In this document: piece by piece, positions 30,026 to 46,785 of the stretch
Position numbering within the stretch: the stretch's first letter is position 1
Layout of the letters: each line of letters opens with the position of its first letter
Origin: an uncultured Paracoccaceae bacterium
GTDB taxonomy: Bacteria; Pseudomonadota; Alphaproteobacteria; Rhodobacterales; Rhodobacteraceae
Direction of reading: 5' to 3'
NCBI GenBank assembly: GCA_947493255.1
Contig: CANLQK010000001.1
Location: forward strand, 496,001 to 560,000
DNA: 64,000 nucleotides
Program-made: the position numbers and the translations under genes
The notes under the pieces: generated by a model
Told to the model about the DNA's origin: nothing
Database searches by the model: none
The model's input: only the letters and a program-made list of their open reading frames with translations

Positions 30026-31230
30026 GACGGGTCGTTATCACCGGCGCAGGGACGATCAATGCGTTGGGCCACGACGTGGATAGCACGTTGAACGCTATGC
30101 AGAACGGGCAATGTGGGATCGGTCCGTTGGACATTCGTGACGTGGACCGGTTGTCTGTCAAAATTGGCGGTCAGGTTACCGGATACGATGAACACGCGCA
30201 TTTCAACCGACAACAGATCAGTCTTTACGACCGGTTTACCCAGTTCACGTTACTCGCCGCAGCAGAGGCACTGGCGCAATGCGGTTTGCAGTTTTCAGGT
30301 GAGTTGGCAGACCGGTCTGGCGTTGTTTTAGGGACGTCTGGAGGGGGATTGAACACCCAAGATGAAAATTACCGTGCAGTGTACGAAGAGGGAAAAAATC
30401 GGGTTCATCCGTTCATTGTGCCGAAATTGATGAACAACGCCGCTGCGTCACATGTTTCGATGAAATACAATCTGCGGGGTCCTTCGTTTACAGTGGCGAC
30501 CGCGTGCGCGTCTTCTAACCATGCGATGGGACAGGCGTTTGCAATGGTCCGTTCGGGCATGGCGGATGTCATGGTGACGGGCGGGTCAGAATCCATGTTG
30601 TGTTTTGGTGGGGTAAAGGCGTGGGAAGGGCTGCGCGTTATGTCCAAGGATGCTTGTCGGCCGTTTTCGGCGACGCGCAACGGAATGGTGCAAGGCGAGG
30701 GGGCCGGGGTGTTTGTGTTTGAAGAATATGAACATGCCAGAAAACGTGGTGCCGTGATTTTAGCCGAAGTGGCAGGTTTTGCGATGTCCTCGGATGCGTC
30801 TGACATTGTGACACCCTCCAAACAAGGCGCGGCGCGTGCAATCGCGGGCGCGTTGAAAGACGCTGGGTTGAACGCGACCGATGTTGGGTACATCAACGCG
30901 CATGGGACGGGGACGGCGGCAAACGATAAGACTGAATGTGCGGCTGTGGCGGATGTGTTTGGGGCCCACGCAGACGATCTTATGATGTCGAGCACGAAGT
31001 CGATGCATGGTCATTTGATCGGTGGTACCGGCGCCGTAGAGCTGTTGGCCTGCATCATGGCGGTGCGGGACGGGGTGATTGCGCCGACCATCGGTTATGA
31101 AGAGCCCGACCCCGAGTGCGCATTGGACGTTGTGCCGAACACGGCACGCGACGCAGATGTTTCTGCTGTTCTATCGAATGCCTTTGCATTTGGTGGGCTG
31201 AATGCAGTTATCGCGTTGAAACGCGCATAA
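30022..31230 (+). CDS. Beta-ketoacyl-ACP synthase, FabF/FabB-like
   Basis: 402 residues, thiolase fold. Catalytic Cys in VATACASSNHAMGQ, His in INAHGTGTAANDKTE and KSMHGHLIGGTGAVE, giving the Cys-His-His triad of elongating condensing enzymes, so it extends acyl-ACP with malonyl-ACP. N terminus RRVVITGAGTINALGHDV is typical. Its coupling to the ACP gene and nearness to lpxD suggest it makes a special acyl chain, not bulk fatty acids. Confidence 0.92.
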   Translation: MRRVVITGAGTINALGHDVDSTLNAMQNGQCGIGPLDIRDVDRLSVKIGGQVTGYDEHAHFNRQQISLYDRFTQFTLLAAAEALAQCGLQFSGELADRSGVVLGTSGGGLNTQDENYRAVYEEGKNRVHPFIVPKLMNNAAASHVSMKYNLRGPSFTVATACASSNHAMGQAFAMVRSGMADVMVTGGSESMLCFGGVKAWEGLRVMSKDACRPFSATRNGMVQGEGAGVFVFEEYEHARKRGAVILAEVAGFAMSSDASDIVTPSKQGAARAIAGALKDAGLNATDVGYINAHGTGTAANDKTECAAVADVFGAHADDLMMSSTKSMHGHLIGGTGAVELLACIMAVRDGVIAPTIGYEEPDPECALDVVPNTARDADVSAVLSNAFAFGGLNAVIALKRA

Positions 31231-31262
31231 AAAACGCCACCCCGAATGAACGGAGCGGCGCA
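31230..31262 (-). terminator. Possible terminator of the IalB-like gene
   Basis: Imperfect stem CGCCACCCCG / CGGAGCGGCG with six A on its left side (T-run on the - strand), 20-50 bp beyond the stop of the IalB-like gene. Confidence 0.45.
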
Positions 31263-31283
31263 GGATGTCATTTTAAAAGTCAG

Positions 31284-31934
31284 TTATTGCTGGGAAACGG
31301 CCTCGAAGGCAGCTGTGAACCCGGACAAGGACATTGTGACGGTTACTGTTTGGTCTGGGGCTGCGGCTGGAACCAAAGACAGGGTTGCCGTCGCGCCGCG
31401 ACGGAATAACGCGACATCTTGTTCTGTTAGGCCCAATCGTGTGACGCAACCGCCAACGTTACAAAAGTTGAACGGGAAACGGCGTGCTTGGCCGCCATCC
31501 ACACGTAGAGTGATTTGTTCGGTCAAAAGTGTTTCCAAAGGAACGACGATCGTCGCACCGGCGACGGCCTGACCTGAATCTGGCAAGCTAACAATGGCGA
31601 TTTCGGCAACGTCGTTGCCTTCCTGATCGCTCATCAATTGATACATTTGGCAGGGGTCTTCGCCTTCTTCGACCTTCAAGCAACGAAGGGCCCAGTCATT
31701 GAATTCAGCTTCAAGGTATTGCTGACCAGGTTGTGGTTCCTGCGGAGCCTGTTCTTCTGGTGCAATCGGTTCACCGTTTTCATCCACTGGCTCACCAAGG
31801 TTGAATACACTTTCTGGCTGGATTTCTTCGGCTGCAGGGGCATCTGCTTCTTGCGCCGACGCAGGAGCAACTGCCGATGTGGCAGCGATCAGCGCAACAG
31901 CTGTAAACGTTGTAAAACGGTCTGTGAAAGTCAT
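31284..31934 (-). CDS. IalB-like periplasmic protein (invasion associated locus B family)
   Basis: 216 residues. Signal peptide FTAVALIAATSAVAPASAQ, then a low-complexity acidic/Pro linker (about 27-80) and an IalB-type domain: DWALRCLKVEEGEDPCQMYQ, VVPLETLLTEQITLRVDGG and FPFNFCNVGGCVTRLGL. Four cysteines in two pairs fit disulfides. The family was named from Bartonella but is common in free-living alphaproteobacteria, where its job is unknown. Start 31934 chosen because GGA precedes it at the right distance and the signal peptide begins there. Confidence 0.82.
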   Translation of the reverse strand: MTFTDRFTTFTAVALIAATSAVAPASAQEADAPAAEEIQPESVFNLGEPVDENGEPIAPEEQAPQEPQPGQQYLEAEFNDWALRCLKVEEGEDPCQMYQLMSDQEGNDVAEIAIVSLPDSGQAVAGATIVVPLETLLTEQITLRVDGGQARRFPFNFCNVGGCVTRLGLTEQDVALFRRGATATLSLVPAAAPDQTVTVTMSLSGFTAAFEAVSQQ

Positions 31935-32084
31935 GTCGAGGTCCAATTGCATTCGTTCTAGTTGCGGTTTCTTATCATGAGCAAAATGACATGTCAGGGC
32001 AAAAGCGCAGGTGCGCGGCGCTTTGCCGAAGCGGGAGGAACGGTGTGTCTGTCGCATTAAGGTTGCGCGCTAATAATACAGTTT

Positions 32085-32150
32085 CAAAAAGAAAAAGGAC
32101 CCCTAAAGGTCCTTCTTCCGTATTCTCCCTGTCGGACTTGGCCGACTTAT
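32085..32150 (+). ncRNA. Candidate sRNA element A (homologous to element B)
   Basis: Hairpin AAGGACC-N6-GGTCCTT (32095-32114), then a single-stranded C-rich stretch ATTCTCCCTGT (32122-32132) and a short GTCGG/CCGAC stem followed by TTATT. The blocks CCCCTAAAGGTCC, ATTCTCCCTGT and GACTTG recur in the same order in element B on the other strand. TAATAATAC at 32071 might serve as -10. The 3' stem is weak, so this copy could be degenerate. The AAGGACC hairpin could alternatively act as a - strand terminator. Confidence 0.3.
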
Positions 32151-32280
32151 TGGCGACACGCTACGAAACACACGAGCAGGCGTCAACCGCGAACTTATCA
32201 AAATTTCCAAAGACTATATCGCATTTAATGGAATAATGATCCGGTGGGAAATGCGCGGTGTATTCTGGGCGCAATCTTTG

Positions 32281-32306
32281 AAAAAAAACCGCGCCCAAGG
32301 GCGCGG
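32281..32306 (-). terminator. Strong - strand intrinsic terminator in a gene-free region
   Basis: CCGCGCC (32289-32295) pairs with GGCGCGG (32300-32306), loop of 4 nt, followed on the - strand by eight T. No - strand gene lies upstream within 1.6 kb, so it must end a non-coding or very short transcript. Confidence 0.7.
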
Positions 32307-32353
32307 CAAGTCTAACAGGGAGAATTTACCGGACCTTTGGGGAGGACATCCTG
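32281..32353 (-). ncRNA. Candidate sRNA element B with anti-Shine-Dalgarno motifs
   Basis: On the - strand, TATATT (near 32365) could be the -10 of a transcript of about 70-75 nt. It would carry UGUCCUCCCC and AAUUCUCCCUGUU as unpaired C-rich stretches and end in a strong GC hairpin with eight T. UUCUCCCUG is exactly complementary to CAGGGAGAA, the Shine-Dalgarno region of the peptide-binding protein gene at 48.57 kb. This pattern (a homologous pair with C-rich seeds) resembles AbcR sRNAs; assignment is inference and the 5' end is a guess. Confidence 0.4.
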
Positions 32354-32429
32354 CAAGACCGGTACGAATATACTGGCCCATAAAGGTTAAGAATGTATTT
32401 TGGGCGCAGAACAGAGCGAAGGACTGAAT

Positions 32430-33965
32430 ATGGGCGACGGAATTTTCATTGGTGGTGGTGGCGAAGGCTACGGCGAAGCGCAGCAGTTGTTATTAAAATA
32501 TGCCAACCGACATGGATTGATTGCCGGGGCCACCGGGACCGGTAAAACCGTCACGTTGCAAATTCTGGCCGAGGGGTTTTCTGCTGCTGGCGTGCCGGTC
32601 TTTCTGTCGGACGTAAAGGGCGATTTGTCTGGCTTGGCAAATTCCGGAACCGCTGATTTCAAGCTTCATGAGCCGTTTATGAAGCGGGCTGAAACCATTG
32701 GTCTGGACCTCGAATATAAGGCGTTCCCAGTAACGTTCTGGGATTTGTTGGGCGAACAGGGCCACCCTGTACGCACGACGGTTGCTGAAATGGGTCCATT
32801 GTTGCTGTCGACACTGATGGGGCTGACCGAAGCGCAAGAAGGCGTTTTGAACGTTGCGTTCCGCGTGGCCGACGAAGAAGGCCTGCCGCTGTTGGATTTG
32901 GAAGACCTACAGGCGTTGTTGGTGTGGTGTGGTCAAAACGCGAAAGAATTGTCTTTGCGGTACGGCAACGTTTCCACGGCCTCTGTTGGCGCAATTCAAC
33001 GAGATTTGTTGGTTTTGGAAAACCAAGGTGGGAAGAACCTGTTTGGTGAGCCAGCGCTTGATCTGGCCGATATGATGTCTATGGACGAGAACGGGAACGG
33101 ACGGATTAACTTGTTGGCGTCTGACAAGCTGATGGCGTCGCCAAAGCTGTATGCGACTTTCTTATTGTGGCTTCTTTCCGAACTGTTCGAGGAACTGCCT
33201 GAAGTTGGGAACCCCGACAAACCGAAACTGGTGTTCTTCTTTGACGAAGCGCACCTATTGTTTGAGGACGCGCCAAAAGCATTGGTTGATAAGGTTGAAC
33301 AGGTGGCACGTTTGATCCGGTCTAAGGGTGTGGGCGTCTATTTCATCACGCAGAACCCTGCGGACGTTCCAGAAGATGTGTTGGGCCAGCTGGGGAACCG
33401 CGTACAGCATGCGCTGCGCGCCTTTACCGCTAAGGACCAGAAAGAGCTGAAACAGGCAGCCGAAACCTATCGTCCGAACCCCGATTTTGACACAGCAGAT
33501 GCCATCCGCGAGGTCGGTACAGGTGAGGCTGTAACGTCTATGCTGGTTGAAAAAGGTGTGCCCGGTATTGTCGAACGTACGTTGATCCGCCCGCCATCAT
33601 CGCAGTTGGGGCCAATCACCAAAGCCGAACGCGCAGCGTTTATGGCAGCGTCGCCAATGGCTGGGAAATATGACGAACGCCTAGATCGGGATTCCGCAGC
33701 CGAAATGTTGGCGAAACGGGCTGATGCCGCAGCGCAAGCCGCTGAAGCCGCCGAAGCTGAAGAAGAAAAGGCCGCGGAGGAGGAACGTGAACACAAGACT
33801 GGGCGTCGCTACACGGGTAGCAATGTCGAGAGGTCAACGTCGCGCTCGTCTTCGTCCAAAGGGTTTGGACAAGCAATTGCGACCGTCGTGGCCAAAGAGT
33901 TGAAGGGCACAACGGGCCGTCGAATTGTACGCGGTATTTTGGGCGGATTGTTCAAAGGCCGATAG
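32430..33965 (+). CDS. HerA-like ATPase, DUF853 family
   Basis: 511 residues, RecA/FtsK-HerA type P-loop ATPase. Walker A in [18 protein letters not shown], Walker B in [17 protein letters not shown], then [20 protein letters not shown] with the sensor, followed by an Ala/Glu coiled segment ([17 protein letters not shown]) and a basic C terminus. DUF853 proteins are widespread single-gene ATPases with no defined role; unlike archaeal HerA there is no NurA nuclease beside it. ATG at 32430 has AAGGA six bases upstream; ten further codons upstream are not used. Confidence 0.88.
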
Positions 33966-45738: not shown

Positions 45739-46785
45739 TTAAGAAATACGGATGCGTGGGTTGAGGAAGACATAGCCGATGTCAGAAATCAGCTGTGTGA
45801 CCAAAACCACGAAGACGGACACGACAGAAACGCCAAGCAGCAATTCGATGTCGTTGTTTGAGGCGGCTTGTACCAACGTCCAGCCAAAACCTTTGTAGTT
45901 GAACAAGGTCTCAACGATGACGACACCGTTTAACAGCCACGGGAACTGCAACATGATCACAGTGAAAGGTGCGATCAGTGCGTTACGCAGGGCATGTTTC
46001 ATCACGATGTTTGGGAAGCTAACGCCCTTGAGGCGTGCGGTGCGGACATATTGCGCTGTCATAACTTCGGTCATGGACGCGCGGGTCATGCGGGCGATGT
46101 AGCCCATGCCGTACATCGCGATAGTGATCACAGGCAGGAAGAAATTGTTGAAGGTCGCATCATCCATGGCCGATGTTGCGGTCCCTTTGAAATACTGCAT
46201 TCCAAACAACGGCGTCGCGAAGACAGCGATGAGGATAACACCAGATACGTATTCTGGTGTCGCGGTTGAGACGATTGAGATCGTCGACAGGCTGCGGTCT
46301 GTGCGCGACCCTTCTCGCATGCCAGCAAGAACGCCTATCAAGAGCGCGCCGGGCACCATGACCATCATGACCCAGAACATCAGTTTTCCAGTTAGGCCCA
46401 AACGTGTGCCTACGATGGTGGAAACGTCGTCTTTAAAGACTGTTGATTGGCCCCATTCACCCTGCAGGATCCCGCAAAAGGTTGCGGTGTCGTCTGTCGG
46501 GGCCCTGTTCGCCGCACATTTCGCGCGGGTTTCACCGTCGGTGCCTTCAATGACGTACCCCGGCAAAACTCCAATCCATTGACCATACTTGACGGGCAGG
46601 GATTGTGTGTAGCCACGGTTGCCAAGGAACGTTTCAACCTGTTCGTCCGACATTCGGAAATTACCTTGGGTTTTGGCAAGTTTTTCCAAGTTCGGATAAA
46701 GGTTCGTCAGCCAGAACACGATGAACGTCAGGCATAATGCCGTGAGGATCATCACGCCCAAGCGGCGGAGAATAAACAGTCCCAT
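45739..46785 (-). CDS. Peptide ABC transporter permease (DppB type)
   Basis: 348 residues, six membrane segments expected. N terminus LFILRRLGVMILTALCLTFI, membrane entry (FVDP-like) motif, and EAA loop YVRTARLKGVSFPNIVMKHA and LRNALIAPFTVIML. Between helices 1 and 2 there is a longer periplasmic loop (about 30-130) than in E. coli DppB. Start ATG at 46785; 29 more codons upstream run through the terminator and are not used. Partner of the long DppC-type permease. Confidence 0.92.
   Translation of the reverse strand: MGLFILRRLGVMILTALCLTFIVFWLTNLYPNLEKLAKTQGNFRMSDEQVETFLGNRGYTQSLPVKYGQWIGVLPGYVIEGTDGETRAKCAANRAPTDDTATFCGILQGEWGQSTVFKDDVSTIVGTRLGLTGKLMFWVMMVMVPGALLIGVLAGMREGSRTDRSLSTISIVSTATPEYVSGVILIAVFATPLFGMQYFKGTATSAMDDATFNNFFLPVITIAMYGMGYIARMTRASMTEVMTAQYVRTARLKGVSFPNIVMKHALRNALIAPFTVIMLQFPWLLNGVVIVETLFNYKGFGWTLVQAASNNDIELLLGVSVVSVFVVLVTQLISDIGYVFLNPRIRIS

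Follow-up and report, generated by a model that had tools for sequence, protein, structure and literature searches.

A candidate sponge RNA encoded beside a SorX/SorY/alpha-r8-like small RNA gene in the Rhodobacteraceae

An intergenic region of an uncultured Paracoccaceae bacterium appears, from its sequence, to hold two independent small RNA genes in tandem on the minus strand. We propose, with a probability of roughly 0.6, that one of them, element A, encodes a sponge for small RNAs (sRNAs) of the alpha-r8 group, working like CrfA against SisA-D and lying beside an anti-Shine-Dalgarno regulator of that group, element B. The sequence supports both genes, their strand, their structures, their conservation and synteny and a predicted pairing between them, and the A/B pair is conserved throughout a large bacterial family whose members are mostly aquatic.

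Results

Two small RNA genes on one strand

An IalB-family gene (minus strand) and a HerA-like ATPase gene (plus strand) flank the region, which spans 32058-32429 of the window, the whole 64,000-nucleotide stretch of DNA analysed. Its features, in window coordinates, are as follows.

31284..31934, minus strand: IalB-family gene, downstream neighbour of A (Pfam PF06776, 129 bits)
31969..31997, minus strand: putative separate ialB promoter, CTGACA (31997-31992), 17 nt, TAAGAA (31974-31969), downstream of the A terminator (conserved pattern)
32084..32118, minus strand: predicted A terminator, AAGAAGGACC..GGTCCTT and then a T-rich tail (folding, alignment, covariation)
about 32090..32151, minus strand: element A, candidate sponge RNA of about 62 nt (R1 model match, covariation, strand evidence)
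about 32090..32151, minus strand: predicted anatomy of A, a hairpin GUCGG/CCGAC, a ACAGGGAGAA linker and the terminator
32122..32143, minus strand: predicted pairing site of A, GGCCAAGTCCGACAGGGAGAAT (alignment, strand evidence, cofolding)
32158..32186, minus strand: putative A promoter, TTGACG (32186-32181), 17 nt, TAGCGT (32163-32158) (conserved pattern)
about 32281..32366, minus strand: element B, SorX/SorY/alpha-r8-like sRNA gene of about 85 nt (R2 model match, Rfam scan, fold z -2.96)
about 32281..32366, minus strand: predicted anatomy of B, a 5' hairpin, a single-stranded anti-Shine-Dalgarno core and the terminator (folding)
32281..32307, minus strand: B terminator, GCCGCGCCCTTGGGCGCGGT and then T7 (folding, terminator listing, alignment)
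32307..32325, minus strand: anti-Shine-Dalgarno core of B, ATTCTCCCTGTTAGACTTG, complementary to A (sequence, pairing)
32363..32402: conserved block upstream of B, reading AaaATACA..cTTAACc..T...tGCCAgt.T on the minus strand (pattern, 77 of 102 distinct B copies)
32430..33965, plus strand: HerA-like ATPase gene, divergent neighbour of B (Pfam PF05872)

R1 and R2 denote our models of A and B; the window copies, matched at C1:528090-528151 and C1:528282-528366, respectively, were among the sequences used to build each.

An earlier note on this DNA had placed A on the plus strand and B on the minus strand and had taken them for two homologous sRNAs in inverted copies. The letters it cited are indeed present, as CCCCTAAAGGTCC (32100-32112), ATTCTCCCTGT (32122-32132) and GACTTG (32135-32140) on the plus strand at A, and as CCCCAAAGGTCC (32342-32331), ATTCTCCCTGT (32325-32315) and GACTTG (32312-32307) on the minus strand at B, whose GC-rich hairpin and T-run end at 32281. 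Local alignment of the A and B halves scored 29, which none of 1000 pairs of dinucleotide-shuffled sequences reached (best 27), so that the shared ATTCTCCCTGT/GACTTG match is not due to chance. CCCC(T)AAAGGTCC, which had been listed as a further shared part, is not a conserved one: it lies in the minus-strand terminator hairpin of A and in the 5' hairpin of B, both of which vary among relatives.

Element A is read from the minus strand

On the minus strand, 17 copies of A (from the source genome and 16 relatives) display a promoter-like TTGAC-N17-TA, the GUCGG/CCGAC hairpin, the ACAGGGAGAA linker and a terminator. Among 59 R1 matches, representing 53 distinct A sequences, 96.8% of the paired cells were standard. 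Changes on both sides were found in 12 of 16 pairs, as high as in none of 500 shuffles, in an alignment that was fitted to the model and is biased accordingly, and of related sequences, which can exceed shuffles. The paired columns of the 53 distinct sequences, read on the minus strand, contain 90 G.U cells versus 7 A.C cells; because A.C cells are what the G.U pairs of the opposite strand would look like, the RNA of A is the minus-strand one.

The promoter pattern points the same way. Of the 113 distinct copies of A, 110 have TTG[AC]CN-N16/18-T[ACT]NNN[CGT] upstream on the minus strand, whereas shuffled sequence gives a mean of 3 and the opposite strand has 5; the spacer is 17 nt in 108 of the 110, and TTGAC occurs in 111 of 113. 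A separate pattern, [CT]TGACN-N17/18-TA, follows within 158 nt after A at 105 of 113 loci, always as CTGAC[ATG] (mean of 5 after shuffling), and lies wholly ahead of the IalB protein match in 97 of the 105. This putative ialB promoter is very uniform (CTGACA in 88, CTGACT in 15, mostly with a 17-nt spacer before TA), and in the examples inspected it is often preceded by CGTG or CATG. The two patterns together make A, by sequence, an independent transcription unit. The A promoter and terminator are assigned by conservation and folding; a consensus scan of 31200-33000 returned no sigma-70 promoter, and the A terminator was absent from its list.

The G.U versus A.C count and the promoter pattern rule out a plus-strand sRNA at A. 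Since A and B are thus read from the same strand, the A RNA is a near-complement of the B core, neither its homologue nor a parallel or inverted copy. A small coding RNA was rejected as well, since only 32 of the 113 copies have a start codon 4-11 nt past GGGA.

Element B is related to SorX, SorY and alpha-r8

For B, the earlier description is borne out: it is a predicted small RNA gene with a C-rich anti-Shine-Dalgarno core and an intrinsic terminator, and the gene on its upstream side, the HerA-like gene, is divergent, leaving no minus-strand gene upstream. The gene is conserved family-wide. The core of B reads CUCCCUGU-N2-GACUUG, is single-stranded over AAAUUCUCCCUGUUAGACUUG in the predicted fold and is followed by the gene's own terminator; the RNA folds better than shuffled sequences (z -2.96). 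In an Rfam scan, B was matched best by SorY, at 34.6 bits (E 2e-5), and by SorX, at 30.1 bits (E 1.8e-5); mmgR came lower in the list, at 18.2 bits (E 0.21), and all three scores lie below the respective gathering scores (111, 46.6 and 41). Elsewhere in the window, at 45984-46162 on the plus strand, the Ruegeria sRNA Cis52_sRNA (RF02647) is matched at 97.1 bits (gathering 56).

The motif CTCCCTGT-N2-GACT has two further exact copies in the source genome, each followed by a terminator; these are C (contig C4) and D (contig C5). Both exceed the SorX gathering score (56.6 and 55.3 versus 46.6), as does a B orthologue in L010 (48.6), and the SorY gathering score was exceeded in one of 198 family genomes. 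Judging by translations, we take the genes flanking C to be purL-like and of LysR type, and the gene directly 5' of D to encode an OmpR-type response regulator. According to PMC6238624, the 3' UTR of an OmpR-like gene is cleaved to release SorX; D is likely the SorX orthologue of the source genome. Because the position of D matches that of SorX and the siblings pass the SorX score, our reading is that B belongs to the SorX/SorY/alpha-r8 group as a third sibling, even though its window copy scores below the library cut-offs. Its relatives suggest that B acts by base-pairing at the ribosome sites of mRNAs, presumably repressing them.

Among 101 B copies, the core reads TTCCTCCCT in 68, TTTCCTCCCT in 12, CCTCCCT in 17, CTCCCT in 2 and otherwise in 2; that of the window copy is AUUCUCCCU. 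The conserved block at 32363..32402 is a probable promoter or regulator site of B, of the divergent gene or of both, and its TTAACC resembles what we take to be a CtrA half-site. In some genomes of the same genus (L014, L016, L021 and L025), a sibling (TTCTCCCTGTTGGACTT) carries the palindrome TTGATGCAGATCAA, or the larger part of it within the sequence inspected, about 75 nt upstream of its core. We assume this palindrome to be FNR-like, which suggests that oxygen may control that sibling.

The A/B pair is conserved throughout the family

The earlier note had proposed a covariance search across the family. In a sample of 295 family genomes from 294 genera, R1 matched 268 genomes at E<=0.01 (240 of the 260 good genomes) and 244 at E<=1e-6 by a count made by eye from the match table, while R2, which also catches the sibling genes, matched 277. 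Across 289 genomes of the class, R1 found nothing outside the family at E<=1e-6, the best such match having E 4.9e-6. At E<=0.001 it matched 29 of the 289, 25 of them outside the family, and seven loci inspected from these 25 genomes' matches were discarded as copies of A: two stood behind a tRNA gene, two were unclear and the others were terminator-like sequences behind genes. An exact 25-letter piece of A occurs in at least 120 stretches of named genomes; among the 80 matches listed, 76 titles carry taxa that we take to be Rhodobacterales, and the remaining four are broader (two Pseudomonadota, one Alphaproteobacteria, one bacterium).

Synteny was assessed at 120 loci, comprising the 30 best A matches, the 30 best B matches, 59 further A matches and one R. 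sphaeroides locus, a set that favours strong copies of A. A is present at 119, which comprise 113 distinct sequences of A and 101 distinct A/B pairs. An R2 match lies on the strand of A at 107 of the 119. With only same-strand R2 matches taken as B, it lies upstream of A in all 101 distinct pairs, at a distance of 51-301 nt (median 86); the single opposite-strand match, a weak one at L200, overlies A itself. At the thresholds used, 12 of the 113 distinct loci have A and no same-strand R2 match. In one of these, L059, R2 matches occur about 2.25 kb upstream, where the contig begins, and at the end of another contig; at the remaining loci, the sequence immediately upstream of A showed no such core. 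The IalB-family gene lies downstream of A on the same strand at 112 of the 113 loci, and a HerA-like gene is divergent at 100. A and alpha-r8-like RNAs are often absent together, A being missing (E<=1e-6) in 14 of 18 R2-negative versus 37 of 277 R2-positive genomes, by counts taken by eye and confounded by small or incomplete genomes and by shared ancestry.

A is predicted to pair with B and its siblings

The predicted partner sites are GACAGGGAG in A and CUCCCUGU in the siblings. Pairing was evaluated by cofolding, in which both RNAs may keep their own structure, and the gain was compared with that of shuffled A. In the source genome, A gained -20.5 kcal/mol with B, -21.7 with C and -20.2 with D, against shuffle means of -6.9 to -9.3 kcal/mol (with shuffled A, -8.3 for B, -9.3 for C and -8.0 for D); the best of 100 shuffles reached -15.4, -20.0 and -16.9, respectively, so that the value for C is near that of its best shuffle. 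In R. sphaeroides, the gains were -18.5 with SorY (best shuffle -14.1) and -22.3 with SorX (best shuffle -18.6), whereas that of A with B, -15.9, was exceeded by the best of 100 shuffles (-17.8). Over the 101 A:B pairs, the mean gain was -18.2 versus -7.1 with shuffled A, the native sequence being better in 100 of the 101 and the poorest native gain being -2.7.

With SorY-type siblings encoded elsewhere in the genome, A formed 13-14 contiguous pairs, free of mismatches, in 17 of 17 genomes, namely those among the 30 best SorY-model loci whose A sequence was also in the set; the mean gain in these 17 tests was -18.6 versus -6.9 (one shuffle each), and the weakest was -8.2. A with B usually has one central mismatch, giving a longest unbroken run of 9 pairs (median), or of 19 if one mismatch is allowed. 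At the key place, A has C in 113 of 113 copies. Of the 101 B copies, 84 fit the pattern and 17 deviate from it, several through a deletion; 70 of the 84 carry a mismatched A opposite this C, while U-G-G stands at this place, opposite the C of element A, in all 29 readable cores of the 30 SorY-model loci.

Loop letters of A and B co-vary (14, 5, 2 and 71; Fisher 1e-10), with 9 of the 101 pairs falling outside these classes. On a tree of the neighbouring proteins (100 rows, 91 scored), the A letter changes three times and the B letter eight times, with one supported independent pair of changes going the same way. The co-change is thus essentially a single event, and we give it no weight as a sign of co-evolution. 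Native partners also paired better than swapped ones (mean -37.0 versus -36.1, 0 of 2000 permutations), a difference weakened by the same shared ancestry.

The locus in Rhodobacter sphaeroides

In the genome taken as R. sphaeroides 2.4.1, SorY was found at C4:1,632,645 (published as 1,632,642), SorX at about 2,598,220 on the same contig, A at C4:1,426,531-1,426,599 and B at 1,426,675-1,426,766, the last two on the minus strand, so that this genome encodes a B besides SorX and SorY. Catalase and LysR-type genes lie just upstream of A/B. Within the flanks examined, a katE-like catalase gene on the upstream side of B was found at this locus alone among the 113 (L170), a HerA-like gene being usual. 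katE is RSP_2779 (PMC3413700, PMC8920488). UdsE, formerly RSs2778, is an sRNA of R. sphaeroides that derives from a 5' UTR and has been seen on Northern blots; its predicted 5' end is a transcription start site, and RNase E and PNPase are involved (PMC8625941). Given the number of katE and the catalase gene beside A/B, RSs2778/UdsE probably comes from the A/B locus. The part of that text available to us gives UdsE no sponge function and does not name its mRNA (PMC8625941).

Discussion

In the proposed mechanism, the hairpin loop and GACAGGGAGA linker of A would imitate a ribosome site and would pair with the CUCCCUGU-N2-GACU core of siblings B, C and D. By masking or destabilising these RNAs, A would relieve their targets, and one presumed client, B, adjoins the sponge gene. 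We infer that A and B are expressed in this organism and pair in the cell, probably in dependence on Hfq, which the source genome encodes; decay of the siblings, the effect on their targets and the signals that would turn on each RNA are likewise inferred. The part of the model that can be read from the DNA is that A, by sequence, is a transcription unit of its own, complementary to the seed of the siblings. The ribosome-site-like GGGAG of this short RNA could also give A other partners. A more specific version, in which the sponge is selective throughout the family, A capturing the SorY-type siblings that it matches without mismatch, B being partly insulated and induction of A handing control from SorX/SorY to B, is put forward tentatively, as a possibility that we would not favour at present.

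The closest functional parallel is found in Caulobacter, where SisA represses many mRNAs, likely via its anti-Shine-Dalgarno core, and carbon starvation induces CrfA, which masks SisA-D and depletes them (PMC12559287). As in our proposal, a small RNA with a G/A-rich site is complementary to an alpha-r8 anti-Shine-Dalgarno core, and there are several siblings per genome (PMC12559287). In contrast, A is about 62 nt long and is encoded beside one sibling, and its hairpin, linker and terminator anatomy was found only in the family of the window; the likeness drawn is one of proposed action. B, C and D share core and layout with SorX and SorY (RF02784, RF02651), which serve the photooxidative-stress response of Rhodobacter through transporter mRNAs, and D lies 3' of an OmpR-type gene as SorX does (PMC8307010, PMC6238624); B differs in falling below both gathering scores and in having its own locus beside A. 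MmgR/alpha-r8 (RF00519) has the core UUUCCUCCCU, an upstream hairpin and a terminator; B likewise has a hairpin ahead of its core and a Rho-independent terminator after it, and the core is TTCCTCCCT or TTTCCTCCCT in 80 of 101 copies, whereas that of the window copy is AUUCUCCCU and the score is 18.2 bits against a gathering score of 41. In most species alpha-r8 adjoins an N-formylglutamate amidohydrolase gene (PMC12559287), unlike B, which adjoins the IalB and HerA-like genes and no gene of that kind.

AbcR1/AbcR2 (alpha-r15) of rhizobia, to which the earlier note had likened the locus, also have C/U-rich anti-Shine-Dalgarno motifs and two sRNA genes in one intergenic region, but they are homologous tandem RNAs beside lsrB, whereas the second RNA here is a complement (PMC7143759, PMC8844928). 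The parallel does not hold: B matches SorY and SorX best, the IalB and HerA-like genes take the place of lsrB or the LysR-type vtlR as neighbours, and A complements the B core instead of forming with B a pair of tandem homologues on one strand. That the locus is nevertheless a pair of homologous AbcR-like sRNAs, A on the plus strand and B on the minus strand, would account for both elements having ATTCTCCCTGT and then GACTTG once A is taken on the plus strand. The 90 G.U versus 7 A.C cells and the promoter pattern place A on the minus strand, and none of the 16 matches of B up to E 10 was named AbcR or alpha-r15, in a library, Rfam, that may hold a model for that family; we give this interpretation hardly any credence.

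Two readings that accept the minus strand deserve more weight. A may be a regulatory leader of ialB, an attenuator whose hairpin and terminator stop most transcripts and in which pairing with alpha-r8 RNAs alters read-through or ialB expression, the short RNA being a by-product. Such a leader would agree with the position of A upstream of ialB on the same strand at 112 of 113 loci, and with UdsE, probably from this locus, having been described as 5'-UTR-derived, sRNA-mRNA cotranscripts being checked by RT-PCR (PMC8625941). Against it, a promoter pattern stands below the A terminator at 105 of 113 loci, wholly ahead of the IalB match at 97, and the site in A fits SorY-type RNAs encoded elsewhere, a match for which a simple terminator leader would have no use; we consider an attenuator unlikely. 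It is also improbable, in our judgement, that A acts in trans on its own set of mRNA targets, as an ordinary sRNA, and that its complementarity to the alpha-r8 core stems from an old inverted duplication or from a shared preference for G/A-rich and C/U-rich motifs. The conservation of the A hairpin and linker despite the usual mismatch with B would be expected of such an RNA, yet A forms 13-14 contiguous pairs with siblings encoded at separate loci in each of the 17 genomes tested, and the cofold gains are for the most part clearly larger than with shuffled sequence, both of which argue against it.

SorX, SorY, alpha-r8, CrfA and UdsE are already in print. The claim that nothing had been described from this group must be qualified, as B has published relatives in SorX and SorY, and RSs2778/UdsE probably derives from the locus. 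It stands for the sponge itself: in the published literature as available to us, mostly open-access, we recognised no description of a SorX/SorY sponge or of the A/B locus and its kin.

B is likely a brake on the making of many proteins, and A is probably an RNA that soaks up such brakes. If A is a sponge, it is one conserved in most of the genera sampled in this family, and it would add an extra layer of control to the photooxidative-stress circuit of Rhodobacter, where takP and potA are among the known targets of SorX and SorY. The alpha-r8 sRNAs would then be countered by sponges in two alphaproteobacterial groups, and sponges may therefore regularly accompany the sRNAs of this widespread family.
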